From positions 1 to 29,937 of the forward strand of contig JARLGP010000004.1 in assembly GCA_031292735.1 (NCBI GenBank): DNA of 29,937 nucleotides, given 5' to 3'. Under the pieces are notes generated by a model. It was not told the DNA's origin. It was given only the letters and a program-made list of their open reading frames with translations, and ran no database searches. Below are positions 6,850 through 27,927 of this stretch, one piece after another. Position numbers and translations under genes: made by a program. The DNA comes from Holophaga sp. GTDB lineage: Bacteria > Acidobacteriota > Holophagae > Holophagales > Holophagaceae. Within the stretch, counting starts at the first letter, position 1; every line of letters starts with the position of its first letter.

Positions 6850-9064
<2,215 letters not shown>

Positions 9065-9110
9065 ACATCGAGTGTGCGGCAGGCAGGCAGTTCGCGCCAG
9101 ATGGATCCTT

Positions 9111-9148
9111 GGGGGGGGGTAAGATGGGGGGCATGAGCGCCCCCCCAT
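9111..9148. promoter_or_regulatory. G9 tract and start-codon hairpin before moeA
   Basis: The short gap between divergent rel and moeA contains nine consecutive G (9111-9119). ATGGGGGG (9124-9131) can pair with CCCCCCAT (9141-9148), leaving the moeA ATG at 9133 inside the nine-base loop. The G-run also acts as the Shine-Dalgarno region. Such a hairpin could dampen or gate translation, and the homopolymer could slip in length. This is seen in the sequence; the regulatory meaning is inference. Confidence 0.45.
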
Positions 9149-10257
9149 TGCCTTCCCTGGAAACGGCCCTGCGCATGCTGGCCGATGCCTTTCCGCCCGC
9201 AGCCACCGGGGCGGTGCTGGCCGACCGGGACGACCCCGCCCTGGACCGCAGCTCCATGGACGGCGCCGCCATGCGCAGCGCGGACGGGACCGTCGGGCGG
9301 ACGGTGCTGGGCACCCTGTTCGCGGGCGATCCGCCCAGCCTGTTCCAGGTGCTCCCGGGCACCTGCGTGCGGATCATGACCGGAGCCTGCCTGCCGGACG
9401 GGGCCGATGCCGTGGTGCCCCTGGAAAACCTCAGGGAAGAGGACGGCCGGCTGGCGCCGCTGGCGCCGCCCGCGGCCGGGGACTGGGTGCGCCCCCGGGG
9501 CGATCAGGCCCTGGCCGGGGCGCTCCTGCTGCCGGCCGGAACGCCCCACAACGCGGCCCGCGCCGGCCTGCGGGCCCAGGTGGGCCTGCCGGCGCCGGCG
9601 CTGCGGCGGCTGCGGGTGGGCATCGCCCCCACCGGCGACGAGATCGTGCAGCGCCCCGCCCCGCACCAGATCCGCGACGCCAACGGCCCGATGCTGGCCG
9701 CCCTGGCCCACGCCCTGGGCGCCGACGCGCGGCTGCTGCCCCCGGTGCCCGACGACCCCGCGCGCCTGCGCAGCTTCCTGGCCGGCCTGGACGACCTGGA
9801 CATCCTGATCACCTCCGGCGGCGTGTCGGTGGGCCAGAAGGACCTCCTGCCCGGGACCCTGGCGGCCATGGGCGCCCGGGTGCTGTTCCACAAGATCCGG
9901 CTCAAGCCCGGCAAGCCCATGCTCGCCGCCCTCCTGGGCCGGCTGGTGGTGCTGGGCCTGCCCGGCAACCCGGTCTCCTCCTACCTCAACGCCCTGCTGT
10001 TCCTGCCGGTGGCCATGGCCGGGCTGCTGGGCACGGCGCCGCCGGACCCCTGGAAGACCGGGGTGCTGGAGACCGCCGTGGCCAACCCCAGCGACCGGCC
10101 CCTGCTGCACCCCTGCCGGCGCCAGGGGGACCGGCTGCAGCCCCTGGCCTCCCGCGGCTCCGCCGACCTGATCCGGCTGGCCCAGGCTGACGCCTGCGCC
10201 TGGATTCCCGAAGGCGGCCTGGAAGCGGGCCCCACGCGTTACCTGGACCTTATTTGA
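9133..10257 (+). CDS. moeA: Molybdopterin molybdenumtransferase MoeA
   Basis: A 374-aa enzyme that inserts molybdate into adenylated molybdopterin, the last general step of molybdenum cofactor synthesis. Motifs in order are LDRSSMDGAAMR (usual SAMDGYA), CVRIMTGACLPDGADAVVPLE, RVGIAPTGDEI, IRDANGPMLAALA, ILITSGGVSVGQKD, KIRLKPGKPMLAALLG and VVLGLPGNPVSSYLNALLF, followed by a C-terminal MoeA domain. ATG 9133 is favoured; ATG 9124 in the same frame adds three residues. It diverges from rel. Its presence a few kilobases from a molybdoenzyme operon fits a need for this cofactor, although the two are separated by a sensor kinase and a toxin-antitoxin pair and are not one operon. Confidence 0.93.
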   Translation: MSAPPLPSLETALRMLADAFPPAATGAVLADRDDPALDRSSMDGAAMRSADGTVGRTVLGTLFAGDPPSLFQVLPGTCVRIMTGACLPDGADAVVPLENLREEDGRLAPLAPPAAGDWVRPRGDQALAGALLLPAGTPHNAARAGLRAQVGLPAPALRRLRVGIAPTGDEIVQRPAPHQIRDANGPMLAALAHALGADARLLPPVPDDPARLRSFLAGLDDLDILITSGGVSVGQKDLLPGTLAAMGARVLFHKIRLKPGKPMLAALLGRLVVLGLPGNPVSSYLNALLFLPVAMAGLLGTAPPDPWKTGVLETAVANPSDRPLLHPCRRQGDRLQPLASRGSADLIRLAQADACAWIPEGGLEAGPTRYLDLI

Positions 10258-10418: not shown

Positions 10419-12920
<2,502 letters not shown>

Positions 12921-13046: not shown

Positions 13047-13283
13047 TCAGACGCGAGGGTTTGCCTTGACCTGCCAAGCGATTTTGACTTTTCGATGCTG
13101 GGCCACGCAGTCACGGAGATACAGGTTGATGAGGCTCTGGTAAGGAACACCAGCCTCCATCGCCATATCCTTGAAATAGAGCACAACCTCCTCAGAGAGC
13201 CTCATGGTGACTGGCTTTTTGAGCTTCGAGGCATATGGGTTCTTGCGCGACTTCATCGTCGAAAGATCGTATTCAGGTTTCAT
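13047..13283 (-). CDS. brnA: BrnA-type antitoxin, ribbon-helix-helix
   Basis: A 78-aa protein with a C-terminal ribbon-helix-helix fold (about residues 25-62: KKPVTMRLSEEVVLYFKDMA, then a second helix with YQSLINLYLRDC). BrnA proteins bind and neutralise BrnT and repress the brnTA promoter as DNA-binding dimers. The N-terminal KSRKNPYASKLKKPVTMRL stretch is typical. The start is ATG 13283-13281, overlapping the brnT stop (ATGA), with a strong GGAGGTG upstream. Base composition is clearly less GC-rich than in neighbouring genes, suggesting acquisition by transfer. The identification is good; activity is untested. Confidence 0.85.
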   Translation of the reverse strand: MKPEYDLSTMKSRKNPYASKLKKPVTMRLSEEVVLYFKDMAMEAGVPYQSLINLYLRDCVAQHRKVKIAWQVKANPRV

Positions 13284-13567
13284 AGCAATTCACCTCCATA
13301 GAAGGCGCTCTCCCGATTCGTAGCACGGCGCGCTGAAATGATGCGGATGGTATTCGCAGACTCTCGCTCGCAGTGGCAGACGAGAAGAAGCCTGGCTCTG
13401 GAACTCAAACCAAGCATGAGAAACCGGTCTTCAGCGGTCGAGTGCTCATCGTCAAAGAACTGAACAGCAAACTCGTCGTGGAAGACAGATTGAGCATCCT
13501 CGAAGGAGACCGAGTGTTTCTTCCTGTTCGCGCCTGCTTTGAGAGGGTCCCATTCGAAGCGGATCAT
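13280..13567 (-). CDS. brnT: BrnT-type ribonuclease toxin
   Basis: A 95-aa toxin (96 if the TTG at 13570 is used) of the BrnT family, RelE-like-fold ribonucleases that cut RNA and arrest translation unless bound by BrnA. Family marks are FEWDPLKAGANRKKHSVSFEDA, a DDEHSTAEDRFLMLGLS segment and IRIISARRATNRESAFY at the C-terminus. Toxin-first order with a four-base overlap is the standard brnTA arrangement. I prefer ATG 13567 because a perfect palindrome sits directly upstream. Low GC relative to the flanks suggests horizontal transfer. It lies between a broken kinase and the nitrate reductase promoter. Confidence 0.87.
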   Translation of the reverse strand: MIRFEWDPLKAGANRKKHSVSFEDAQSVFHDEFAVQFFDDEHSTAEDRFLMLGLSSRARLLLVCHCERESANTIRIISARRATNRESAFYGGELL

Positions 13568-13582
13568 CAATACAGCGTATTG
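13568..13582 (-). promoter_or_regulatory. Perfect inverted repeat at brnT start, likely BrnA operator
   Basis: CAATACAGCGTATTG is a perfect 6-3-6 inverted repeat touching the brnT ATG. Ribbon-helix-helix antitoxins such as BrnA repress their own operon by binding a short palindrome at this place. A TTGACC (RC of 13598-13603) upstream could be a -35. The repeat is seen directly; the role as operator is inference. Confidence 0.55.
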
Positions 13583-13806: not shown

Positions 13807-14919
13807 ATGAGAATCATCGAGCACCTGGAACTGGAACCGCGGCCTCTCCTGCGGGCAGCCCTGGCCACCCTGGGCCTGGGCGGCCTCATCGCCCTGGGCA
13901 GCGGCGGCGGCCGCTGGCTGGACCCGGCCCTGCTGGGCTACCTCATCGCCTCGGTGTTCGCCTGCTTTGGCGTGGCCTACCGGTACTTCACCTGGCTGGA
14001 GCGCCCGGCCACCGCCATGTACTGGCGCTGGACCCTGGCCACCTTCCTGAGCGCCAAGGGCCTGGCCCAGGTGCCGCGCATCGGCCTGACCCTGCTGGAC
14101 CAGCTGCTCCTCCAGCGCTTCATCAGGCGCCGCTCCATCCAGCGCTGGGGCGCCCATGCCTGCCTGGCCTGGGGCTGCCTGCTGGCCTTCGCCGTGACCT
14201 TCCCGCTGGTGTTCGGCTGGGCCCGGTTCACCAGCGATGGATCCAACCCGGACCGCTACCAGGCCTGGGTCTTCGGGTTTCCGGCCGGCAGTTTCCCGCT
14301 GCACTCGCCCCAGGCCTGGGTCACCTTCCACATCCTGGACCTGGCCGCGGTCATGGTGCTGGCGGGATGCGCCCTGGCCTTCCTGCGCCGCTCCCGGGAC
14401 GACGGGGACACCGCCACCCAGCGCTTCGACCTGGACATCCTGCCCTTGCTGATGCTCATCGCCATCTCCGTCACGGGGCTCCTGCTCACCGCTTCGGAAA
14501 CCTGGCTGCAAGGGCGCAATTTCGGCACCCTCGCCTACATCCACGAGATGACCGTCATCGTCATGCTGCTGTCACTGCCCTTCGGCAAACTGTTCCACAT
14601 CGTCCAGCGCCCGGCCCAGGCCGGGGTGGCCCGCTACAAGGCCGAAGGCAACGCCGTGCCGCTGCTGCCGTGCAAGGCCTGCGCCACGCCCTTCATCCGG
14701 TTCAACCAGCGGGCGGACCTGGAGACGCTCTGGGCGCAGCTGGGCCTGGACGGCGCCCGCCACGGCAACGGCGTCCACCACCTGGACCTTTGCCCCCGGT
14801 GCAAGCGCCGGCTGCTGATGAAGGCCCAGAGCCAGAGACTCGGCGGGGCCTTCGATCCCTTCGCCGACCTCCCGCTTCCGGTGGAAGCCCTTTCCGACCC
14901 CATCAGTTTCGGGAGCTGA
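13807..14919 (+). CDS. Cytochrome-b-like membrane subunit with C-terminal Cys4 motif
   Basis: A 370-aa membrane protein, first in the nitrate reductase operon. About six helices are visible (near 14-34, 38-64, 118-143, 172-195, 206-232 and 238-264). Histidines at 117, 175, 246 and 264 lie in or at the ends of helices and could ligate two b-type hemes, as in NarI-like quinol-oxidising subunits. That is inference. After the last helix comes an apparently cytoplasmic tail with CKAC at 289-292 and CPRC at 329-332, a four-cysteine rubredoxin- or zinc-ribbon-like site. The start is ATG 13807 with GAGG eight bases upstream; the next gene follows after three bases. It may pass electrons between the quinone pool and the soluble subunits. 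Confidence 0.75.
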   Translation: MRIIEHLELEPRPLLRAALATLGLGGLIALGSGGGRWLDPALLGYLIASVFACFGVAYRYFTWLERPATAMYWRWTLATFLSAKGLAQVPRIGLTLLDQLLLQRFIRRRSIQRWGAHACLAWGCLLAFAVTFPLVFGWARFTSDGSNPDRYQAWVFGFPAGSFPLHSPQAWVTFHILDLAAVMVLAGCALAFLRRSRDDGDTATQRFDLDILPLLMLIAISVTGLLLTASETWLQGRNFGTLAYIHEMTVIVMLLSLPFGKLFHIVQRPAQAGVARYKAEGNAVPLLPCKACATPFIRFNQRADLETLWAQLGLDGARHGNGVHHLDLCPRCKRRLLMKAQSQRLGGAFDPFADLPLPVEALSDPISFGS

Positions 14920-14922
14920 CCC

Positions 14923-17183
<2,261 letters not shown>

Positions 17184-17184
<1 letters not shown>

Positions 17185-17795
17185 TGGCCATTCACGAGAG
17201 CGTTTCGAACATCACCGAGACAGGCGCCATGGCCTTCTTCATCGATCCCCAGCGCTGCATCGGTTGCCGGAGCTGCGTGGCGGCCTGCGCCGAGTGCGGG
17301 ACCCACCGGGGCCATTCCATGATCCATCTGGACGAGCTGGACCGGCTGGCCTCCACCCAGACCGGCCCGACGGTATGCATGCACTGCGAGGACCCCATCT
17401 GCGCCATGTCCTGCCCGGCGGACGCCATCAAGCGCAGCGAGGACGGCGTCGTGCATGCCAGCCAGAAGCCCAGGTGCATCGCCTGCCAGAACTGCGAATT
17501 GTCCTGCCCGTTCGGCGTGCCCATCGTGTTCTCCGGGCTGGAGCAGATGCTCAAGTGCGATCTCTGCTACGACCGCACCTCCATGGGCCAGCGGCCCATG
17601 TGCGCCACGGTCTGCCCCAGCCAGGCGCTGCTGTTCGCGCCCCGGCACGAGGTGGCCGCCATGCGCGCCAACAAGCCCCTGCGCAGCTTCCTCATCGGTT
17701 CGCTGGTGGTCAGGACCCGCAACGCCATCATGGTGCCGGATCCCGAAACGCCCCTGCACCTGAACGCGGACCTGCTTTGCGACGGAGGCCTGTGA
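17184..17795 (+). CDS. Four-cluster ferredoxin-like electron-transfer subunit
   Basis: A 203-aa iron-sulfur protein of the DmsB/NrfC/NarH-like family. Four cysteine groups are seen: CIGCRSCVAAC near residue 20, CMHCEDPICAMSCP, CIACQNCELSCP and CDLCYDRTSMGQRPMCATVCP, enough for four [4Fe-4S] clusters. It has no Tat signal or membrane helix, so it would sit on the cytoplasmic side with the catalytic subunit and wire it to the membrane parts. The start ATG at 17184 shares one base with the preceding stop, and its own stop shares a base with the Rieske gene's ATG. This tight coupling implies fixed stoichiometry in one complex. Confidence 0.88.
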
Positions 17796-18379
17796 TGGCC
17801 TGGAAAAGCCTGTTCCCCGTGGACCTGGCCGAGGAGAGCCGGCTCTCCCGCCGGGAGTTCGCCCGGTTCATGGCCCTGGTGTCCGTCGGGTTCACCGGCG
17901 GCATCGCCTATCTGTACCTGCGCAAGAAGCCCCTGGACGGAGCACCGTCAACCCCCGGGGGGGCTGCGGCCCAATCCCCGGACCCATCCGCGGAGATCAA
18001 GGTGTGCCGGGTGGAGGAGCTCACCCCCGGCAACAGTTTCCTGTTCACCTACCGGGATGCCAAGGACCGCTGCATCCTTGTCCACACCCCCAAGGGCGAG
18101 TGGCGGGCCTACCGCCAGACCTGCACCCACCTGGGTTGCGCCGTGCGCTGGGATGGCCGCCGTCTGGAATGCCCCTGCCACAACGGCGCCTTCGAAGTGG
18201 ATCTGGGTTTCCCGGTGATGGGACCTCCCACCCGGCCCCTCTCCCGTCTGAACGTGGAGTTGCGGCCTGATGGCTGGGTCTGGATCCATGGGGATCTCCC
18301 CAGAAGCCCGTTTGTCTCGAGTGTGCCCGAAGGGGATACCGAGAGGCCCGCCCTGCCGGGACAAGGAGGCGACGCATGA
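17795..18379 (+). CDS. Tat-type membrane-anchored Rieske [2Fe-2S] protein
   Basis: A 194-aa Rieske protein. The N-terminus has a twin-arginine motif (SRREF at 18-22) followed by one hydrophobic helix (about 25-43), as in bc1-type Rieske proteins whose signal stays as an anchor. A Pro/Ala linker leads to the Rieske fold. Box 1 is CTHLGC (110-115) and box 2 is CPCHNGAF (126-133); the predicted ligands C110, H112, C126 and H129 and the disulfide pair C115/C128 are all present, so the cluster should be of high potential. The head would face the periplasm, opposite the catalytic subunit, unless Tat export is not used. It overlaps the ferredoxin gene by one base and the next gene by four. Confidence 0.88.
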   Translation: MAWKSLFPVDLAEESRLSRREFARFMALVSVGFTGGIAYLYLRKKPLDGAPSTPGGAAAQSPDPSAEIKVCRVEELTPGNSFLFTYRDAKDRCILVHTPKGEWRAYRQTCTHLGCAVRWDGRRLECPCHNGAFEVDLGFPVMGPPTRPLSRLNVELRPDGWVWIHGDLPRSPFVSSVPEGDTERPALPGQGGDA

Positions 18380-18591
18380 TCCCCCCCGCCAAAAGCCATC
18401 TCACCGGCGCGGCCATGGCCGTCGTGCTGCTGGTGGTGCTGATCCAAGCCTACCTGTTCGAGACGGTGCTGGAAGCCGTGCTGGACGGCCAGCGGGCAGC
18501 GCTCCCCGGCGCCCTCGCCGTCTCCGCGGTGCTCAGCGCCGTGGCCCTGTTCCTGGCCTTCAAGGCGCCCACCCTGGACCGGCACAAGTAG
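18376..18591 (+). CDS. Small two-helix membrane protein of the nitrate reductase operon
   Basis: A 71-aa protein with two hydrophobic helices (about residues 10-31 and 43-62) and short charged ends. I recognise no family. ATG 18376 overlaps the Rieske stop (ATGA) and is preceded by AAGGAGG, so translation is well supported. Size and topology recall small accessory subunits of respiratory complexes. Its place between the Rieske protein and the nitrate porter suggests an assembly or structural subunit, which is inference. Confidence 0.75.
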   Translation: MIPPAKSHLTGAAMAVVLLVVLIQAYLFETVLEAVLDGQRAALPGALAVSAVLSAVALFLAFKAPTLDRHK

Positions 18592-18654
18592 ACGCATTTC
18601 CATCCTCTTCCCATTAATGAACCGCAGAAAGCCGACCCCGGCAAAGGAGCTCGC

Positions 18655-20181
18655 ATGGCCAGAATCACCCACTGGAATCCGGAGGATCCCAAAGCGTGGG
18701 AGGGCGGGGATTCCGGGATCGCATGGCGAAACCTCGCGTTCTCCGTGCCGGCGCTGCTCATGGCCTTCGCGGTCTGGATGTTCTGGAGCATCCTGGCGGT
18801 CCGGATGAAGGAAGCGGGCTTCCCGTTCAGCTCCGCCCAGCTGTTCACCCTCATCAGCATCGCCGGTCTGTCCGGCGCGACCTTGCGCATCCCCAGCTCC
18901 TTCCTCGTGTCCCTGGCCGGCGGCCGGAACACCGTGGCGGTGACCACCGCCCTGCTGATCGTGCCGGCCCTGGGCGCGGGCATCGCCCTCCAGGACATTC
19001 ATACCAGCTTCACCACCTTCGTGGTCATGGCCACCCTGTCCGGCATCGGCGGGGGCAACTTCGCCTCCAGCATGGCCAACATCCCCGGGTTCTTCCCCAA
19101 GCGGCTGGCGGGCACGGCCCTGGGCCTCAACGGCGGCCTGGGCAACCTGGGGGTGAGCGTCATGCAGGTGGTGATCCCCGCGGTGTTCGGCCTGTCCCTG
19201 TTCGGGACCCTGGCCGGCGCGCCCCACATCACCGCCGCGGGCAAGGCGCTCTACATCCAGAATGGCGCGCTGGTCTGGGTGCCGGTGCTGGCGCTGCTCG
19301 CGGTGATGGCATGGCTGTTCATGGATAACCTGCCCGGCCAGGACAGCGAGCCGTTCGGCCTGGCCCTGCTCAAGATCCTGGGGCTGCACCTGCTGGGCCT
19401 GGCGGTCGCGGCCCTGGGCGTGCTGCTGCTGCTCGGCTTCCAGCTGGGCCTGCTGGCCCAGCTGGGCGTGCTGGTGCTCACCATCGTGGTCTCCCTGGGC
19501 CTGCTGCGCCTGCTCCCGGGCCGGATCCGCACCCGGCTCACCCAGGATTTCCGGATGTTCGGCAACCGGAACACCTGGACCCTGACCATGCTGTACCTGG
19601 GCACCTTCGGCAGCTTCATCGGGTTCAGCGGCGCCCTGCCCCTGCTCATCAACGTGGTGTTCGGACGGCTTCCGGGCGGAATCGCGAACCTGCACGCGCC
19701 CCGGGCCATGGCCTATGCATGGCTGGGTCCCCTGGTGGGTAGCCTGTTCCGGCCGGTGGGCGGCTGGATGGCGGACCGCTGGGGCGGAGGGCGCATCACC
19801 CAGCTCTCCTTCGTCATCATGGGCGCGGGCGCGCTGGGGGTGGCCCACTTCGTGAAGCTGGCCCAGGGCGCCCCGGCTCCCGAGCTGTTCTTCCCGGCCT
19901 TCCTGGGCCTGTTCCTGCTGCTGTTCGTGGCCACCGGCCTGGGCAACGGCGCGGTGTTCCAGCTGGTCCCCCACGTCACCGCCCCGGGCATGGCCCCGCC
20001 CACCGTGGGCTGGATCTCTGCCGTGGCCGCCTACGGCAGCTTCATCGTCCCCGCCATCTTCCGGATCCAGGTGGACGCCGGCGCCCCGCAACGGGCCCTG
20101 TACCAGTTCACCGCGTTCTATGGGGTCTGCCTGGTGCTCAACGGCTGGCAGTTCGCCCGGAGAACACGACAAAAGAACTAG
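18655..20181 (+). CDS. narK: NarK-type nitrate/nitrite porter
   Basis: A 508-aa major facilitator of the NNP family that imports nitrate and/or exchanges it for nitrite across the inner membrane. The family signature GIGGGNFASSMANI with FFPKRLAGTALGLNGGLGNLG starts near residue 130; a second glycine-rich signature GLGNGAVFQLVPHV lies near residue 428. It is longer than the usual 12-helix form (about 460 aa) because two additional hydrophobic segments lie near residues 243-285. The start is ATG 18655 with AAAGGAG upstream, 63 bases after the previous gene. A cytoplasmic nitrate reductase needs such a porter, so the pairing makes functional sense. Confidence 0.93.
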   Translation: MARITHWNPEDPKAWEGGDSGIAWRNLAFSVPALLMAFAVWMFWSILAVRMKEAGFPFSSAQLFTLISIAGLSGATLRIPSSFLVSLAGGRNTVAVTTALLIVPALGAGIALQDIHTSFTTFVVMATLSGIGGGNFASSMANIPGFFPKRLAGTALGLNGGLGNLGVSVMQVVIPAVFGLSLFGTLAGAPHITAAGKALYIQNGALVWVPVLALLAVMAWLFMDNLPGQDSEPFGLALLKILGLHLLGLAVAALGVLLLLGFQLGLLAQLGVLVLTIVVSLGLLRLLPGRIRTRLTQDFRMFGNRNTWTLTMLYLGTFGSFIGFSGALPLLINVVFGRLPGGIANLHAPRAMAYAWLGPLVGSLFRPVGGWMADRWGGGRITQLSFVIMGAGALGVAHFVKLAQGAPAPELFFPAFLGLFLLLFVATGLGNGAVFQLVPHVTAPGMAPPTVGWISAVAAYGSFIVPAIFRIQVDAGAPQRALYQFTAFYGVCLVLNGWQFARRTRQKN

Positions 20182-20697: not shown

Positions 20698-20970
20698 TCA
20701 GAGGGGCTTGCGGATGCTGGTGCGGAACTGGGAGCCCTCCAGCCCGCACCAGACATCCATGCCGGCCGCTTGAAAAACCTCCAGCAGGGGCTCGGGCCGA
20801 AAGCCGGTGCGCAGTTCCACGATGTCCCCGGGAGCGCAGGCGGCCACCGCCAGCCTGACCCGGGCGAGGGGATGTTCCCCGGCCGCCAGGAGGAGCGCCA
20901 CGTCCAGTTCCAGAACCACTTTTCCGGGATCGTACCAGGCCGGCCGGCCGGTTTCCTTGGTATCGCTCAT
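20698..20970 (-). CDS. DUF2249 (TusA-like fold) protein
   Basis: A 90-aa protein matching the DUF2249 type, with VLELDVALLLAAGEHPLARV, PGDIVELRTGFRPEPLLEVF and AGMDVWC. The fold is expected to be TusA-like, but the catalytic CPxP of TusA is absent; a lone Cys sits in the C-terminal strand. DUF2249 proteins are often encoded with hemerythrins and nitrogen-oxide enzymes. Function is not established. ATG 20970 overlaps the stop of the upstream hemerythrin gene (ATGA), so the two are coupled. Confidence 0.75.
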   Translation of the reverse strand: MSDTKETGRPAWYDPGKVVLELDVALLLAAGEHPLARVRLAVAACAPGDIVELRTGFRPEPLLEVFQAAGMDVWCGLEGSQFRTSIRKPL

Positions 20971-22220
20971 CGGGACTCCGGAGCTTCGTCGTAGTGGAGC
21001 AGCCGGCGTTCGCCCTTCAGGGCGCGCAGGCGGGTGAGGTCCTGGGTCACTTCAAGGGTGCCGAGGTAGGCCCCGGCTTCGTCCCGGACCGCGAAATAGC
21101 GGATGTGGACGAACTTGCCGCCCATCTCGATCCAGAATTCGGACACGCTTTGCCGGCCCGCCTTGAAGTCGGCCAGGATCTTTTCGACGATGGCCATGCT
21201 CTTGGGGGGGTGGCAGTTCTGCACCGCCCGGCCGATGATGGCGCGGCTCCGGGCGAAGACCCGGTCGGGCCCTTCGCTGAAGAAACCGACCCGGTCTTCG
21301 GCGTCGACGAAGGTGAGGTCCACCGGCAGGCTGTTGAAGAGCCCCAGGAGCTGCTCGAAGGAAAGGGTCCCGCTTGGGAACTGCACGGCCTTGGCGGGCG
21401 GCAGTTGAAGAGGATCCTCGGGAAGCTTGGCCTGGGGTGGGGTGTAGCCGGTGAGAGGGGCGACCAGGCACCAGCCGTAGTCCTGGCTCTGAGCCCAGAT
21501 CTCGCCCCAATCCTCCTCGGTGAACAGCCCCAGGGCCATGGGGAAGAGGATGTGCTCCTCCTTGTAGACCATGGATTCCAGGGCGGCGAGGGCGGGTTCC
21601 AGCATGGTCGCAGCCACGAATTTCAATTCGGCGCCGCACAGGGTCTCCTCGCGCAAGGCGGAGAGGGCGCCCTTGAGCAGGTTCCGGACCTCGTCGTCCT
21701 TGCCCCACATGACCTTTGAGGGCCCGGTGTTGCCGTGCCGCTCCAGCAGGGTGAACACCAGGTGCTCCTTGCGGCCATAGTGTTTTTCCACATCCATGAG
21801 CGGATTGGCCGCCTCCAGCAGGGACAGGCGGTCGGCCCGGGGGGTTCCCTGATCCTGTAGACCCGCGATCGCCTTGATCCGCAGCCGGACGATGAGGATG
21901 GCTTCTTCCAGGGCCCGGTTCTCCCGCTGGAAGGTGTCCACGGGGTGGCCGGGCTGGAGCGGCTTGGCAGCCCTCGGCTCGGCCATGACCTCCTTGAGCA
22001 CGTCCGCGTGCAGGTCGCACATGGCCCGGACCTGTTCCGGGGAAAGCCCATCCGCCATGAGCTGCTGCTCCATGGCGGCGATCTCGCTGGCATCCACCTC
22101 GGCCACCAGGCTCCTCAGCTGGGCGCGGACCGCCTCGGGAGCCTCCCCGCTGTGCAGGTGGAGGATGACTTCCTTGAGGGTCTTGATCCGCAGTTCCTGG
22201 TTATTGATCAGCTCGCTCAT
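20967..22220 (-). CDS. DUF438 / hemerythrin / PAS protein
   Basis: A 417-aa cytoplasmic protein. The N-terminal DUF438 domain (about 10-80) is followed by a hemerythrin-like four-helix domain (about 88-240) with candidate diiron ligands H92, H147, H153 and H223 in GHPVDTF, EKHYGRKEH and YKEEHILFP contexts, and a C-terminal PAS domain (about 288-400) with DLTFVDAEDRVGFFSEG. Hemerythrin diiron sites bind O2 or NO, so a sensor, carrier or repair role is possible; which one cannot be told. I chose ATG 22220 because GGGAAGGGA precedes it; an upstream frame start at 22253 lacks support. It is first in an operon with DUF2249 and the fmdE remnant, under an FNR-like box. Confidence 0.85.
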   Translation of the reverse strand: MSELINNQELRIKTLKEVILHLHSGEAPEAVRAQLRSLVAEVDASEIAAMEQQLMADGLSPEQVRAMCDLHADVLKEVMAEPRAAKPLQPGHPVDTFQRENRALEEAILIVRLRIKAIAGLQDQGTPRADRLSLLEAANPLMDVEKHYGRKEHLVFTLLERHGNTGPSKVMWGKDDEVRNLLKGALSALREETLCGAELKFVAATMLEPALAALESMVYKEEHILFPMALGLFTEEDWGEIWAQSQDYGWCLVAPLTGYTPPQAKLPEDPLQLPPAKAVQFPSGTLSFEQLLGLFNSLPVDLTFVDAEDRVGFFSEGPDRVFARSRAIIGRAVQNCHPPKSMAIVEKILADFKAGRQSVSEFWIEMGGKFVHIRYFAVRDEAGAYLGTLEVTQDLTRLRALKGERRLLHYDEAPESR

Positions 22221-22251
22221 GATTCCCTTCCCTGGGCGCTGCCCATCCCCC

Positions 22252-22293
22252 AATATCCGACCAAGGCAGTGGCCTTTCCTTGACGCGGATCAA
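22252..22293 (-). promoter_or_regulatory. FNR-type promoter of the hemerythrin operon
   Basis: TTGACGCGGATCAA (22280-22293) matches TTGAT-N4-ATCAA at 9 of 10 positions. On the minus strand, GATATT (complement of 22252-22257, 4/6 to the -10 consensus) would start transcription near 22245, putting the box centre at -41.5, exactly as for the nitrate reductase operon. The ATG at 22220 follows about 25 bases later. Confidence 0.6.
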
Positions 22294-22630: not shown

Positions 22631-24466
22631 TTGGCCCAGACCATTGCCGAGCTGTTCTACGAGACCCTGAAGTTCGACCTGCCGGACGCCTTCGCGGCCA
22701 AGGAGGGAGGCACCTACCGGACCATCTCCCATCGGGAACTGCAGGAACGGGTGGAACGTCTCGCCCTGGCCCTGCACACCCGGGGCCTGCGCTGCGGGGA
22801 CCGGCTGGCCATCCTTTCGGAAAACCGCCCGGAGTGGGCCGTGACGGATTTCGCCTGCGCCCTTCTGGGGGTGGTGAGCGTGCCGATCTACCACACCCTC
22901 ACCGCCGACCAGACCGCCTACATCCTGCGGGACGCCGGCGCCCGCTGGCTGCTGGTCTCCAACGCGGCCCAACTGGCCAAGGTGCGCCAGACCCTGGACC
23001 GGCTGCCGGAACTGGAGACCCTGATCGTCCTGGACGACACCGGGGAACAGACCGCGGGCGAATGCGCGGGCAAGACCTGGATCCACTGGTCGCTGCTCCA
23101 GCAGGAAGGCGAGGCCATGGACGCCCGCCGGGCCGAGGTGCGCGCCTGGGCCGGGGAACGCCGGGAGGAGGACCTGCTCACCCTCATCTACACCTCGGGC
23201 ACCACCGGCGAGCCCAAGGGCGCCATGCTCAGCCACGGCAACCTCACCAGCAACCTCGCCGCCACCATCGAGGTGGCCATCCTGGCCCTGCGCCCCCAGC
23301 GCGGCGACCGCTGCCTGAGCGTGCTGCCCCTGTCGCACATCTTCGAACGCACCGGCGGCCACTACGCCATGTTCCAGCTGGGCATCGCCATCTACTACGC
23401 CGAAAGCCTGATCTCCATGCCCCAGAACATCCTGGAGGTGCGCCCCGCGGTGCTCATGGCGGTGCCCCGGATCTTCGAGAAGATCTACGCCAAGGTGCGC
23501 GACGCGGTCTCCTCGGGCGGCTTCACCCGCAAGATGATCTTCGGCTGGGCCACGGTCACCTGCCACCGGGTGGTGCGCAACCTCTACCTGGACCGCCGCC
23601 CCCGGGCCCTCCTCAACCTGTCCTGGCGGCTGGCGGACCGCATCCTGCTGTCCAAGGTGCGGGAGAAGACCGGCGGCCTGCTGCGCTTCTGCGTCACCGG
23701 CGGGGCCGGCCTGAACCCGCGGATCATGGAATTCTTCTGGGCCATGGGCGTGCCCATCTACGAAGGCTACGGCCTCACCGAAACCAGCCCGATCCTCACC
23801 CTCAACCGCCTGGGCCGGGTCCGCCCGGGCTACGTGGGAACGCCGGTCATGAAGACCTGGAACGGCCGGCCTTTCCTCAAGCTGGCGGACGACGGCGAGA
23901 TCCTGGTGCAGGGCCCCAACGTCATGCTGGGCTACTGGAGGCAGGAGGAGGCCACCCGCGCGGTGTTCGACGCCGACGGCTACTTCTGCACCGGCGACGT
24001 GGGCGAGATGGACCCCCAGGGCCGGGTGAAGATCACCGACCGCAAGAAGGAGATCATCGTCACCAACGGCGGCAAGAACGTGGCGCCCCAGCCCATCGAG
24101 AACGAGCTGCGGGAGGATCCCTACATCGAGCAGGCGGTGGTGGTGGGCGACCGCCGCAACCACCTGGCGGCGCTCATCGTGCCCGACCTCCCCGCCCTGC
24201 GCGCCTGGTGCGGGCGCAAGGCGCTCACCTTCCGGAACGACGACGAGATGGTGGCCCACCCCAAGGTGCTGGCCAAGCTCATGACCCGGGTCAACCACGT
24301 CAACGCCAAGCTGCCCGCCTACGAGCGGATCCGCCGGATCGCCCTGCTGGCCCAGGAGCTCACCCCGGCCAGCGGCCTGCTGACCCCGTCCCTCAAGCTC
24401 AAGCGCCGCGAGGTGAACGAGGCGTTCAAGGACGTCATCGAAGGGCTCTACCGCACCGGCTGCTGA
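22631..24466 (+). CDS. fadD: Long-chain acyl-CoA synthetase (AMP-forming)
   Basis: A 611-aa ANL-superfamily enzyme that activates fatty acids with ATP and CoA. The P-loop LIYTSGTTGEPKGAMLSHGN starts near residue 185, YGLTETSP is at 380-387, and FCTGDVGEMD followed by ITDRKKEIIVTNGGKNVAPQ (the hinge and A8 region) lies near 453-485. The C-terminal lysine region is present. Full length and the central DRILLSKVREKTGG segment fit the FadD15-like long-chain branch. Substrate chain length is inferred. The start is TTG 22631; an ATG at 22617 is out of frame. The last 19 bases overlap the 3' end of the convergent DUF3501 gene. No other fatty-acid genes adjoin it. Confidence 0.92.
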   Translation: MAQTIAELFYETLKFDLPDAFAAKEGGTYRTISHRELQERVERLALALHTRGLRCGDRLAILSENRPEWAVTDFACALLGVVSVPIYHTLTADQTAYILRDAGARWLLVSNAAQLAKVRQTLDRLPELETLIVLDDTGEQTAGECAGKTWIHWSLLQQEGEAMDARRAEVRAWAGERREEDLLTLIYTSGTTGEPKGAMLSHGNLTSNLAATIEVAILALRPQRGDRCLSVLPLSHIFERTGGHYAMFQLGIAIYYAESLISMPQNILEVRPAVLMAVPRIFEKIYAKVRDAVSSGGFTRKMIFGWATVTCHRVVRNLYLDRRPRALLNLSWRLADRILLSKVREKTGGLLRFCVTGGAGLNPRIMEFFWAMGVPIYEGYGLTETSPILTLNRLGRVRPGYVGTPVMKTWNGRPFLKLADDGEILVQGPNVMLGYWRQEEATRAVFDADGYFCTGDVGEMDPQGRVKITDRKKEIIVTNGGKNVAPQPIENELREDPYIEQAVVVGDRRNHLAALIVPDLPALRAWCGRKALTFRNDDEMVAHPKVLAKLMTRVNHVNAKLPAYERIRRIALLAQELTPASGLLTPSLKLKRREVNEAFKDVIEGLYRTGC

Positions 24467-25044
24467 ACCCCATGGGCCTTGGGCGGAGGCCAGGACGCCA
24501 GGTCGGCCTGCAGCGCCTCCCGGGTGGCGCCGTCCAGCGCCGTCTCCAGGACCCGTTCCGGGAGGTCGCAGGCCAGCCCCGCCGGGAGGTGCCCGCCCAG
24601 CTCGAACCGGAGGAACTGCACCGAGGACAGCTTGTCGTCGCTCATCTGGCTTTCGTCGAAGCGGGCCCGGATCCGGGTGCCGCCTTCGCAGACCAGGAAG
24701 ATGTGCTCCGGCAGGCGGCGCCAGCGGCGCAGCAGCACCGCCCGTTCCTGCTCGTCGGTGATCTCGATGAGCAGGGTGCAGCCCAGCTCCCCGGGCCCGC
24801 CCAGCACGGCGTTGTAGGTGTCCAGCTCGTGCCGGATGTCGGCTTCCTTGACCATCTGCTCGGCCCGCACCATCTCCAGCACCTGGTAGCGGATGGTCTC
24901 CCGGTTCTCGAACAGGAAGGTGAGCTGGTCGCCCAGGTGGACCCGGCGCAGGTCCTTGGCGGCCATGGCCGAGGCGCGGATGGCGTCCCGCCGCTCGGAA
25001 TAGGCGACGAAATCCAGGATGTCTTCGCGTTCCACGAATGCCAT
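24448..25044 (-). CDS. DUF3501 family protein
   Basis: A 198-aa soluble protein recognisable as DUF3501, with DFVAYSERRDAIRASAMAAK, LGDQLTFLFENRETIRYQVL, EADIRHELDTYNAVLG and LLIEITDEQERAVLLRRW. The family is typically encoded beside a rubrerythrin and a CCG-domain iron-sulfur protein, as here; its biochemical role is unknown. ATG 25044 lies two bases after the stop of the upstream gene. Its 3' end overlaps the acyl-CoA synthetase gene on the other strand by 19 bases. Confidence 0.85.
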   Translation of the reverse strand: MAFVEREDILDFVAYSERRDAIRASAMAAKDLRRVHLGDQLTFLFENRETIRYQVLEMVRAEQMVKEADIRHELDTYNAVLGGPGELGCTLLIEITDEQERAVLLRRWRRLPEHIFLVCEGGTRIRARFDESQMSDDKLSSVQFLRFELGGHLPAGLACDLPERVLETALDGATREALQADLASWPPPKAHGVQQPVR

Positions 25045-25046
25045 GG

Positions 25047-26435
25047 TCAACCTTCCGCGGGAATGGGGGTGGGAAAGCCGTCCGGGCGGTAGGCCCGGGC
25101 CAGGATGGTCATGGGGTGCAGCGCCTTGTGCCCGGCGTGCTGCTCGAACTGCATGGCCGCCAGCGGGCATTCGGTGGCCCACACCTGGGCCCCGGCCCCG
25201 GCCATGGCGTCGAACGCCTTGCCCCCGATTCGCCTGGAAGCGTCATAGGTTTCCGACTTCAGCGCGTAGGTGCCGTCGTGGCCGCAGCATTCCAGCACCG
25301 AGAGGATCGACACCCCGGGAATCTTGCGCAGCAGGTCGCGGCCCTTGAAGCCCACCGACTGGGTGCGCAGGTGGCACGGGGCGTGGTAGGCCACCGGGCC
25401 GGGGCTGGAGCGGAAGTTCCAGTTGGCCCGGGACTCGTTGCGGATGGACCACAGGTACTCGCCCGGGTCGCGCACCGCCTCGGCCAGCAGCCGGGCCTGT
25501 TCCCGGTCGGCGCCGGTGAGCAGCTCGGGGTATTCCCGCCGGAGCATCATGGAGCAGGTGGGGTTGATCACCAGCACCTTCGCACCGGCCTCCACGTGCG
25601 GCATGAGCGCGTCCAGGTTGGCCTTGGCCTGCCGGCGCAGGCTGTCCAGGTCGCCCCGCTCCCAGGCCGGCATGCCGCAGCACTGCAGCCCGCGCACGCA
25701 GCCGGCATGCACGCCGTTCTGCTCCAGCACCTCCAGGGTGTCCTTGCCGATCTGGGGATCGTTGTTCTGCACGAAGCAGGTCTGGAACAGCACCGCTTCC
25801 AGGCCCACGTGCTCGGCCATGCGGCCGTTCTTTTCGGCCCAGGCCTCGAAGGTGCCGCTGGCGAACTCCGGCAGGTGCGCCAGCGGGTGGATCCCGAGCA
25901 CCTTGTCCATGAACCAGCGATGCAGGGGCACCCGGTTCAGGGTGTTGGCCAGGCCGAAGCTGGCCCGGGCCATGGTGCCGGCCAGGTCCGGGTCGCCCAG
26001 GAGCCTGTCGCGCAGGCTGCCGCCCTCCCGCTTGCGCCGCTGCGCCTGGTAGCGGTGCACCAGCTTGGGGAAGTCCAGGGCGAAGGCGTGCCCCTCCCGG
26101 GGGGTGTAGGGGCACTGCACCTCGCACAGCTTGCACTGGAAGCAGGCGTCCAGCACGCCGTCGCGCTCGTCCCGGGAAAGGGCGCGCACGTCGCCGTGGT
26201 GCTTCTGGTCCAGCAGCGCGAACAGCCCGGGAAACGCGTCGCAATACTTGAAGCACATGCGGCAGCCATGGCAGATCTCGAAGACCCGGTCCACTTCCTC
26301 CTGGAGCAGCGCCTCGTCCCAGTAGCGCGGATCGCTGGGATCGTATACCGTGGCCGCCCCCGCGTTGTAGCTGATCCGCTCGCCCGGAGTGGTGGGCGCG
26401 CGGCCGGAGTCGCCTGGAACGTCGTGCTCGGCCAT
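25047..26435 (-). CDS. GlpC/HdrD-like iron-sulfur oxidoreductase
   Basis: A 462-aa protein with two ferredoxin-type [4Fe-4S] motifs near the N-terminus (CHGCRMCFKYC and CFQCKLCEVQCPY) and two CCG domains (FQTCFVQ through LQCCGMPAWERGD, and YHAPCHLRTQ through LECCGHDGTYAL), as in the anaerobic glycerol-3-phosphate dehydrogenase C subunit and heterodisulfide reductase D. No glp or hdr partner is nearby. Instead it sits between rubrerythrin and DUF3501, a recurrent trio. A likely role is delivering electrons to rubrerythrin for peroxide reduction, since that rubrerythrin has no rubredoxin domain. That is inference. It starts 15 bases after the rubrerythrin stop. Confidence 0.85.
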   Translation of the reverse strand: MAEHDVPGDSGRAPTTPGERISYNAGAATVYDPSDPRYWDEALLQEEVDRVFEICHGCRMCFKYCDAFPGLFALLDQKHHGDVRALSRDERDGVLDACFQCKLCEVQCPYTPREGHAFALDFPKLVHRYQAQRRKREGGSLRDRLLGDPDLAGTMARASFGLANTLNRVPLHRWFMDKVLGIHPLAHLPEFASGTFEAWAEKNGRMAEHVGLEAVLFQTCFVQNNDPQIGKDTLEVLEQNGVHAGCVRGLQCCGMPAWERGDLDSLRRQAKANLDALMPHVEAGAKVLVINPTCSMMLRREYPELLTGADREQARLLAEAVRDPGEYLWSIRNESRANWNFRSSPGPVAYHAPCHLRTQSVGFKGRDLLRKIPGVSILSVLECCGHDGTYALKSETYDASRRIGGKAFDAMAGAGAQVWATECPLAAMQFEQHAGHKALHPMTILARAYRPDGFPTPIPAEG

Positions 26436-26450
26436 GGCTGCTCCTTCAGA

Positions 26451-26870
26451 CTAGGCGATGCTGTCGAGCATCTTCTGGAATCTCCCGGCATGGCTCTTTT
26501 CCGCCTTGGCCAGGGTTTCGAACCAGTCGGCGATCTCGCTGAAACCCTCTTCCCGGGCGCTCTTGGCCATCCCGGGATACATGTCGGTGTACTCGTGGGT
26601 CTCGCCGGCGATGGCCGCCTTGAGGTTCAGCAGGGTGTCGCCGATGGGCAGGTCGGTGGCCGGATCGCCGACTCCCTTCAGGTAGTCCAGGTGGCCGTGG
26701 GCGTGGCCGGTCTCGCCGTCGGCGGTCTCCTTGAAGTTGCCCGCCACCTCGGGGTAGCCCTCGATGTCGGCCACCTTGGCGAAGTACAGGTAGCGGCGGT
26801 TGGCCTGGGATTCGCCGGAGAAGGCGTCCTTCAGGTTCTGGTGGGTTTTGGTTCCCTTCAGGTTTGGCAT
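26451..26870 (-). CDS. Rubrerythrin, short form without rubredoxin domain
   Basis: A 139-aa diiron protein that reduces hydrogen peroxide. Expected iron ligands are present: E20 ([10 protein letters not shown]), E53 and H56 (ETGH), E90/E93 (GETHEY), and E124 and H127 (EKSH). The usual C-terminal rubredoxin domain with two CxxC motifs is absent, so electrons must come from another protein, plausibly the adjacent iron-sulfur protein. The start is ATG 26870 with GAGGAG seven bases upstream. First in an operon of three, it faces oxyR across a 145-base region with an OxyR-type site, implying peroxide induction. Confidence 0.92.
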
Positions 26871-26923
26871 GGTGCGCTCCTCAGAAGCAGCATCATCATA
26901 ATCTTCCAAACGACAAATCCTTG

Positions 26924-26960
26924 ATACTTCTTCCCTATCGCGTTGATAGGTCAATCCTAT
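26924..26960. promoter_or_regulatory. OxyR tetrad binding site
   Basis: Four tetranucleotides spaced by exactly seven bases: ATAC (26924-26927), CTAT (26935-26938), ATAG (26946-26949) and CTAT (26957-26960). The OxyR consensus is ATAG-N7-CTAT-N7-ATAG-N7-CTAT, so 15 of 16 core bases match. The site lies 54 bases upstream of the rubrerythrin ATG and 55 before the oxyR ATG, suited to divergent control: activating the peroxide operon and autoregulating oxyR. Confidence 0.85.
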
Positions 26961-27015
26961 CACATACTGGTATTTGTCCTTGACCTTCCAATCACCGCTG
27001 CCATGATCCTGGTCC

Positions 27016-27927
27016 ATGTCCCGCCCATCGGACCTCACCTTCCGCCAGTTGGAGTACCTGGTCGCCCTGGCCGATACCCTGGGCTTCCACCGGGCCGCGG
27101 AGCGGGCCCATGTCTCCCAGCCCGCGCTGAGCGCCCAGATCCAGCAGGCCGAGGCGATCCTGGGAGTCCAGCTGTTCGAGCGCAACCAGCACCGGGTGCT
27201 GCTGACCCCCGCCGGCGGGATGGTGGTGGCCCGGGCCCGGCGGGTGCTGCGCGAGGCGGAGGACCTGCTGGCCTCGGCCCGGCTGTTTTCCGACCCGTTC
27301 CGCAGCAGCTGGCGGCTGGGGCTCATCCCCACCGTGGCCCCGTACCTGCTGCCGGAGATCCTGCCCGGCATCCAGCAGGCCCACCCCGATCTGCGCCTGC
27401 TGCTGCGGGAGGAGCGCACCCCGGTGCTGGTGCGGGAACTGCAGGCCGGCGGGCTGGAGGCGGCGATCCTGGCCGAAGTGCCCGACCTGGGCGATCTGGC
27501 GCGGGCGCCCCTGGCCGAGGACCCGTTCCTGCTGGCGGCCCCCCGCGATCACCCCCTGGCGCGCAAGCGCAGGGTCGCCCTCAAGGACCTGGAACAGGCG
27601 CCGCTGCTGCTGCTGGAGGACGGCCACTGCCTGCGCGGCCAGGCCCTGGCCTTCTGCGCCAAGGCGGGCGCGCGGGAGGCGGATTTCCGGGCTTCCAGCC
27701 TGTCCACCCTGATGCAGATGGTGGCCGGCGGCATGGGCCTCACCCTGCTCCCGGCCCTGTGCGCGCCCCTGGAGCGGAGCCGGGCCGAACTGACCATCCG
27801 GCCCTTCGTGCCGCCGGTGCCGGGCCGGCAGCTGGTGCTGGCCTGGCGCGCCGGCTCGCCCCTGGCCGGCGCCCTGGAGGCCTTTGCCGGCCAGTTGCGC
27901 GCGGCCTGGCCGCGTCCGGCCCTGTGA
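27016..27927 (+). CDS. oxyR: Hydrogen peroxide-sensing regulator OxyR
   Basis: A 303-aa LysR-family regulator. The N-terminal winged helix-turn-helix (about 8-66) has LTFRQLEYLVALADTLGFHR and SQPALSAQIQQAE. The sensing cysteines are both present: C205 and C214 in LEDGHCLRGQALAFC, with the same nine-residue spacing as C199/C208 of E. coli OxyR, followed by FRASSLSTLMQMVAGGMGLT. This is a redox-competent OxyR rather than a generic LysR protein. The start is ATG 27016; the Shine-Dalgarno is weak. It diverges from the rubrerythrin operon, with a tetrad site between. Confidence 0.94.
   Translation: MSRPSDLTFRQLEYLVALADTLGFHRAAERAHVSQPALSAQIQQAEAILGVQLFERNQHRVLLTPAGGMVVARARRVLREAEDLLASARLFSDPFRSSWRLGLIPTVAPYLLPEILPGIQQAHPDLRLLLREERTPVLVRELQAGGLEAAILAEVPDLGDLARAPLAEDPFLLAAPRDHPLARKRRVALKDLEQAPLLLLEDGHCLRGQALAFCAKAGAREADFRASSLSTLMQMVAGGMGLTLLPALCAPLERSRAELTIRPFVPPVPGRQLVLAWRAGSPLAGALEAFAGQLRAAWPRPAL

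Follow-up and report, generated by a model that had tools for sequence, protein, structure and literature searches.

A conserved set of five genes was found around a molybdoenzyme of the NasC clade, coding for this enzyme (CAT), a NarI-like membrane b subunit (CYB), a ferredoxin (FDX), a Rieske protein (RSK) and a small membrane protein of the DUF6755 family. The gene set is real and well supported, both in the stretch of DNA analyzed (hereafter the window, 29,937 nucleotides of Holophaga sp. contig JARLGP010000004.1) and in relatives. It seems probable that the products form a membrane-bound respiratory menaquinol:nitrate oxidoreductase of new architecture. On the wider proposal, opinion can be evenly divided: this would be an additional class of nitrate reductase in prokaryotes, present in some nine phyla, in which an exported Rieske protein stands in for the distal haem of a NarI-like subunit in menaquinol oxidation and the nitrate-reducing subunit is a cytoplasmic NasC-type enzyme.

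Organization and conservation of the operon

A preliminary description of the window had reported six genes separated by overlaps of 1–4 bases or by short gaps, and their coordinates, all on the + strand between 13807 and 20181, bore this out (Table 1). The identities given there to the NarB/NasC-type enzyme, the four-cluster ferredoxin, the Tat-type Rieske protein, the 71-residue protein and NarK were backed by domain matches. The family name of the small protein and the conservation of the set in other phyla go beyond that description.

Table 1. Genes of the probable nitrate reductase operon in the window.
Product	Position	Strand	Length	Remarks
Cytochrome-b-like/NarI-like membrane b subunit (CYB)	13807-14919	+	370 aa	
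NasC/NarB-clade molybdoenzyme (CAT)	14923-17184	+	753 aa	3-base gap after CYB
Ferredoxin, four predicted [4Fe-4S] clusters, DmsB type (FDX)	17184-17795	+	203 aa	1-base overlap with CAT
Rieske [2Fe-2S] subunit, twin-arginine N-terminal membrane anchor (RSK)	17795-18379	+	194 aa	1-base overlap with FDX
DUF6755 small two-helix membrane protein	18376-18591	+	71 aa	4-base overlap with RSK
NarK-family nitrate/nitrite transporter	18655-20181	+	508 aa	63-base gap; MFS_1 and NarK-type models

Contigs were scanned with the catalytic subunit and the best 80 of 538 relatives were retained, among which 30 genomes were picked for diversity and longer contigs. Both CYB and RSK were present in all 30 genomes, where the top RSK matches scored 190 bits or more and the next class no more than 102 bits. 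Considering the 52 loci flanked by 4 kb or more on each side, CYB was found in 47, FDX in 49, RSK in 49 and all three in 46, while the arrangement of the window (CYB directly upstream of CAT, FDX and RSK downstream) was kept in 38. The six loci short of the full trio were L027, L038, L041, L042, L050 and L054, four of them from Armatimonadota by title; the genomes of L027, L038 and L042, which are among the 30, still contain CYB and RSK, which in G015 lie 11 and 13 kb from CAT. A match of at least 100 bits to the window NarK occurred in 25 of the 52 loci, so the transporter is either less constant than the other genes or of differing subfamily. In one Armatimonadota MAG (L048:7638-9821) a NarK-type transporter is fused in frame to the NarI-like subunit, the NarK-type domain scoring 236 bits, under the 311.7 cut-off of that model.

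As judged with a simple filter, a small protein with two hydrophobic helices is encoded next after RSK in 63 of 67 loci. Within these 67 loci, L051, L058 and L063 showed no DUF6755 gene next to RSK, and L011 was scored as lacking it because the open reading frame exceeded the filter length, a 64-bit match existing there. Pfam assigned DUF6755 in both small proteins scanned, those of the window and of F. succinicans, and RefSeq uses this name in two Deinococcus plasmids with the gene order b subunit (labelled 'MFS transporter'), molybdopterin oxidoreductase, 4Fe-4S protein, Rieske protein, DUF6755 and transporter. The RefSeq label of the gene upstream of the catalytic gene was rejected as a misannotation, its product being 44% identical to CYB over 344 columns.

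The linkage was followed further in 150 Flavobacterium genomes, of which 30 had CYB and 29 had catalytic places scoring 833 bits or more. Every one of the 32 catalytic places at this score, to which the counts were restricted (NasA-like and partial places being omitted), had CYB directly upstream and in the same orientation. In the thirtieth genome with CYB, G061, this gene is on two other contigs, and the catalytic matches there are limited to a partial one (452 bits) and the NasA-like gene. The separate NasA-like gene of many such genomes, which is longer (about 1120–1210 aa), is not adjacent to any of the 34 Flavobacterium CYB places. The tie of the Rieske and membrane genes to the enzyme, without which the preliminary description would have failed, was upheld in relatives.

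By record titles and tree labels, which are for the most part those of MAGs, the relatives belong to about nine phyla: Acidobacteriota, Omnitrophota, Thermodesulfobacteriota, Armatimonadota, Actinomycetota, Deinococcota, Bacteroidota, Verrucomicrobiota, Binatota and possibly Myxococcota. Isolates are found in Geothrix, Flavobacterium and Deinococcus. A copy labelled 'Methanoregulaceae' nests among Armatimonadota and may be misbinned.

Concerning the surroundings of the operon in the window, a BrnT/BrnA type II toxin-antitoxin pair lies just upstream (13047-13570, - strand). On the same side there are a MoeA-like molybdenum cofactor gene (9037-10257, + strand) and a PAS-domain hybrid histidine kinase gene (10974-12920, + strand), for which cofactor supply to the operon and its regulation are possible roles. 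On the downstream side of narK a DUF438-hemerythrin-PAS protein is encoded (20967-22253, - strand), and a hemerythrin gene is likewise near the operon of Deinococcus NW-56. Farther on, at 24448-27419 of the - strand, there is a cluster for DUF3501, cysteine-rich/4Fe-4S and rubrerythrin-domain proteins. In one set of ten window ORFs, several of them probably in wrong frames, eight gave no Pfam match.

Features of the subunits

CAT contains the Pfam domains Molybdop_Fe4S4, Molybdopterin and Molydop_binding. It is of the Mo-bisPGD type, with an N-terminal [4Fe-4S] motif and Cys167, followed by Met168, as the predicted Mo ligand. This motif and the Cys-Met pair were kept in all 81 catalytic sequences, none of which has the S/T-RR-x-F motif for Tat export. 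Cys-Met also occurs in the NasC, NasA and NapA references, except for the Georgenia Nas reference, whose Cys-Thr means that the pair is not absolute; four formate dehydrogenases have Cys/Sec-His or Cys-Gln. Against the NasC model for assimilatory nitrate reductase (NCBIfam NF047855) CAT scored 791 bits, under the 1100-bit cut-off, which was reached in none of the 30 genomes (top score about 850). With the narG model it gave 67 bits for a cut-off of 1084, so it is not of NarG type.

In a midpoint-rooted tree of 51 proteins, several long reference branches of which were flagged by the tree program, the CAT family formed a single clade of 35 rows (support 100/100), sister to four Nas enzymes. The joint group of 39 rows, with the NasC-like enzymes included, was also supported at 100/100, and formate dehydrogenases, NasA and NapA fell outside it. 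Three of the four sister enzymes are encoded beside nirB, the record of the fourth being unannotated, and nirB adjoins five reference Nas genes in all. The nearest proteins to CAT are 94% identical, followed by those of Geothrix sp. 21YS21S-2 and Mesoterricola silvestris (85%), the Geothrix isolates of the genome collection (79–82%) and the Deinococcus relatives (64%); identity is 44–46% to the nearest Nas, 33–37% to other Nas, 30–38% to formate dehydrogenases and 25–27% to NapA. A firm grouping with a non-nitrate family, which would have undone the preliminary assignment, was thus not observed, and a formate dehydrogenase reading was rejected on the tree and the Cys-Met motif. Judging from clade, motif and neighbours, the catalytic subunit is likely a nitrate reductase. 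In one source its close relatives are labelled 'assimilatory nitrate reductase catalytic subunit'.

The membrane subunit matched no Pfam family above its cut-off. Rows for its comparison were omitted if under 150 bits, shorter than 300 or longer than 400 aa, which left 63; the alignment was made from 47 of them and the window. CYB resembles NarI in sequence by hhalign, including the helix LH...PFxxLxH, and also in the fold of its predicted structure, where the observed Z is one that helical bundles can attain by chance. Foldseek returned mostly receptors for CYB, none at E <= 0.001, and NarI at E 0.68. Three predicted haem ligands are invariant wherever the position is filled (H117 in 69/69, H246 in 71/71 and H264 in 71/71), while H175 is His in 60 of 71 sequences and Asn in the other 11. 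The position presumed to correspond to His66 of NarI, a distal-haem residue, is occupied by Ala or Gly in 70 of 70 sequences in an alignment made by hand, hhalign having stopped short of that helix; CYB thus seems to lack this residue. At its C-terminus there is a CxxC...CxxC ribbon. A bc1-type cytochrome b was rejected on the NarI-like fold and profile alignment, and the bc-like membrane module of the preliminary description had to be replaced by a NarI-like one.

FDX has a Fer4_11 domain and 17 Cys, each of them kept in 71 of 71 sequences. RSK matches the Pfam Rieske domain, its cluster motif is preceded by a twin-arginine anchor, and all 67 Rieske homologues of at least 35 bits (lower-scoring rows were not counted) have RRxF before the cluster motif; the alignment comprised the window and 39 of the 66 rows of at least 60 bits. 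The profile match to the b6f Rieske protein extends over positions 23–160, with the anchor within it. AioB is among the closest Rieske proteins by sequence and fold, and for the RSK model the top fold matches were a dioxygenase ferredoxin and AioB, ahead of bc1. At two positions that are Ser/Tyr in high-potential Rieske proteins, Gly/Phe was found in 66 of 67 sequences and Ala/Phe in one. This signature suggests a low Rieske potential, which would suit menaquinol.

The kinship to AioB raises the alternative that the Rieske protein is fed by a periplasmic cytochrome c, the complex being a cytochrome c:nitrate reductase and not a quinol oxidase. Arsenite oxidase does use its Rieske subunit with cytochrome c, as in the fold match 8ed4 (oxidase plus cytochrome c552). 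However, no cytochrome c cluster was common to most of the 31 loci (of 80) submitted to neighbour clustering, where representatives of 15 of the 22 non-core clusters were scanned and seven clusters of 3–4 loci were unscanned; the only such genes seen were nrfHA, in five loci. The Gly/Phe signature, with the low potential that it suggests, also speaks against this alternative, which we consider unlikely.

Proposed electron route and host context

Since the b subunit is NarI-like and seems to lack His66, a route is proposed that runs from an outward Rieske centre to haem b, ferredoxin and nitrate. Nitrate would enter through NarK and be reduced to nitrite by the cytoplasmic NasC-clade subunit. 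At the outer face, electrons would come in through the Tat-type, membrane-anchored Rieske protein, which would take the place of the NarI distal haem and oxidise menaquinol at a site on that face; entry of menaquinol electrons at this centre is the most economical reading of the sequences. By homology, electrons would then pass through haem b of the NarI-like subunit and the four [4Fe-4S] clusters of FDX to CAT. Protons would be released outside and electrons carried inward, as in NarGHI, so that energy would be conserved. The DUF6755 helix pair probably joins the Rieske protein and the cytochrome b, as a guess, and nitrite would be passed to whichever of NrfA or NirK the host has.

A Rieske centre and a b haem are also the pair used by bc complexes. 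This could be taken to mean a bifurcating enzyme resembling a Q-cycle, with one menaquinol electron going to the Rieske centre and an outside acceptor and the other through haem b to nitrate, a second haem being conceivable between H175 and H246 in 60 of 71 sequences. For a haloarchaeal operon with Rieske and Nar genes, a Q-cycle has been put forward (PMC2483277). Nevertheless, the b subunit is NarI-like, H175 is replaced by Asn in 11 of 71 sequences and no conserved second acceptor was seen among the 31 clustered loci, so bifurcation is very unlikely.

Coming back to the menaquinol:nitrate oxidoreductase, its physiological role was approached through the nitrite reductases of the hosts. No nitrite reductase family matched among 39 chosen ORFs of the window (some likely in wrong frames), in agreement with the preliminary statement that no assimilatory one is encoded there. 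Among the 30 genomes, matches were found for NirB over cut-off in 5, NrfA in 13, NarG in 5, NirK over cut-off in 5, NapA in 1 and siroheme nitrite/sulfite reductase (NIR_SIR) in 14; the 16 genomes with no NIR_SIR match include seven of the eight Geothrix isolates. NrfA is present in all eight Geothrix isolates, elsewhere in the genome than the operon. Within 10 kb, nrfHA was found by neighbour clustering in 5 of the 31 loci (L025, L027, L048, L055 and L060), with Pfam run on nrfA of L055 and nrfH of L060, and the NrfA search confirmed it in G011, G021 and G025, at 2.7–8.0 kb from the catalytic gene. In F. daejeonense nirK lies 8.4 kb upstream of the catalytic gene. Molybdenum-cofactor genes and the transporter families TauE, SLAC1 and TM_HPP flank several loci.

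These data bear on the alternative of an assimilatory NasC-type nitrate reductase with an acquired membrane anchor, quinol-fed but serving nitrogen nutrition. It would fit the sister position to Nas enzymes, three of four beside nirB, and NirB over cut-off in 5 of the 30 genomes makes assimilatory use possible in those. Nevertheless, in the three Flavobacterium genomes that encode NirB there is a distinct NasA-like enzyme of 1171–1178 aa, NirB of G011 is near a different NasC-model match, more than half of the genomes gave no NIR_SIR match, and nrfHA or nirK is near the operon in several hosts. So, an assimilatory role is improbable, and the genomic context makes the enzyme likely respiratory. 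The leaning to respiration in the preliminary description was thereby strengthened by the lack of NIR_SIR matches, the 13 genomes with NrfA and the five loci with nrfHA, and weakened by the five with NirB.

Six genomes, all of them MAGs (G013, G015–G017, G026 and G027), gave no match for NIR_SIR, NrfA or NirK over cut-off in a search that had NirS outside it. These genomes, and the fact that many hosts are aerobic (Flavobacterium, Deinococcus), could suit a reverse operation as nitrite oxidase, with electrons leaving outward through the Rieske protein. However, the sister group and the active-site motif are those of reductases, and nrfHA and nirK occur as neighbours; reverse operation is extremely unlikely.

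The operon is not the sole nitrate reductase of five of the eight Geothrix isolates (G001, G002, G003, G004 and G006), where narG is encoded on the opposite strand, some 12 kb away from the catalytic gene. In the other three isolates (the genomes of loci L008, L019 and L047) neither narG nor nap was found.

Relation to known nitrate reductases

Compared to NarGHI, the proposed complex shares the cytoplasmic Mo subunit, the four-cluster ferredoxin subunit, the NarI-like b subunit and NarK, and quinol-driven electrogenic reduction is expected; it differs in the NasC-clade catalytic subunit, the lack of narJ in the operon, the additional Rieske and DUF6755 proteins and the apparent lack of His66. 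Compared to assimilatory NasC/NasA/NarB, the catalytic subunit is a sister, with the same Cys-Met Mo site and no Tat motif, but its partners are FDX, CYB, RSK and DUF6755 in place of the nirB neighbour of the five reference Nas genes. The preliminary proposal of a distinct quinol-linked nitrate reductase is thus retained as to the conserved set, the Nas-sister clade and, conditionally, the quinol route, and abandoned as to the bc-like module.

Haloarchaeal NarG and NarH face outward. Among nitrate reductase operons, the haloarchaeal nar operon comes closest as an earlier example with a Rieske protein (PMC2483277): in Haloferax mediterranei, narB (Rieske) and narC (cytochrome b) accompany narGH, with predicted quinol dependence, but the system has NarG/NarH, a cytochrome b of 486 aa and NarJ.

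Arsenite oxidase AioAB is alike in belonging to the same broad Mo clade and in having a Rieske partner. It is not known to have a ferredoxin or b subunit. It is also different in being periplasmic and having no amino-acid ligand on Mo (PMC7331816 and PMC10100899). In Bacillus bataviensis (PMC3475470), nasC is linked to a Rieske-type gene, but the system is read as an alternative assimilatory one, with a gene for a hybrid-cluster protein.

According to Wells 2020 (PMC7331816), canonical four-cluster or membrane-anchor subunits are absent from every member of the Nas/Nap/Aio/cytoplasmic-FDH clade, and the role of Nas is limited to assimilation. The gene sets described here contradict the former statement and, if the respiratory reading is right, also the latter. 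Eichorst 2018 (PMC5900883) attributes the reduction of nitrate in Geothrix fermentans to narG. The same paper cites a proposal of a possible dissimilatory role for nasA in other Acidobacteria, so this idea as such had already been voiced. Nitrate reduction by Acidobacteriota MAGs was inferred from narGHI, nap and nrfAH in PMC8100337. A literature search over titles and abstract openings, with most subscription papers and bioRxiv preprints outside its scope, found no description of the five-subunit complex; there was no mention of DUF6755 in the literature searched.

The NasC/NasA-like family makes up 18.60% of the MopB superfamily, as given by Wells 2023 (PMC10100899), and genome surveys read its genes as nitrogen assimilation. 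Should one branch be respiratory, the extent of nitrate respiration and ammonification among bacteria of soil, sediment and sludge is underestimated, and hosts with neither narG nor nap found, such as the three Geothrix isolates, would still be nitrate respirers. As the relatives occur in many phyla under misleading or generic names, they may stand for a pathway of nitrate use that has gone unnoticed in soil and water. With this operon, the pairing of a Rieske protein with a NarI-type b subunit could also be put to the test, and DUF6755 would be given a function.

Other Mo and Rieske proteins were observed in some of the relatives. At L018:8262-13086 a second operon lies beside the nitrate operon, coding for a Mo protein similar to type II DMSO reductase/NarG (TIGR03479, 479 bits, under cut-off), a protein with Fer4_11 and cytochrome c, and another Rieske protein. 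Genomes G013, G016, G025 and G026 contain Mo proteins of about 825 aa together with weaker Rieske matches.
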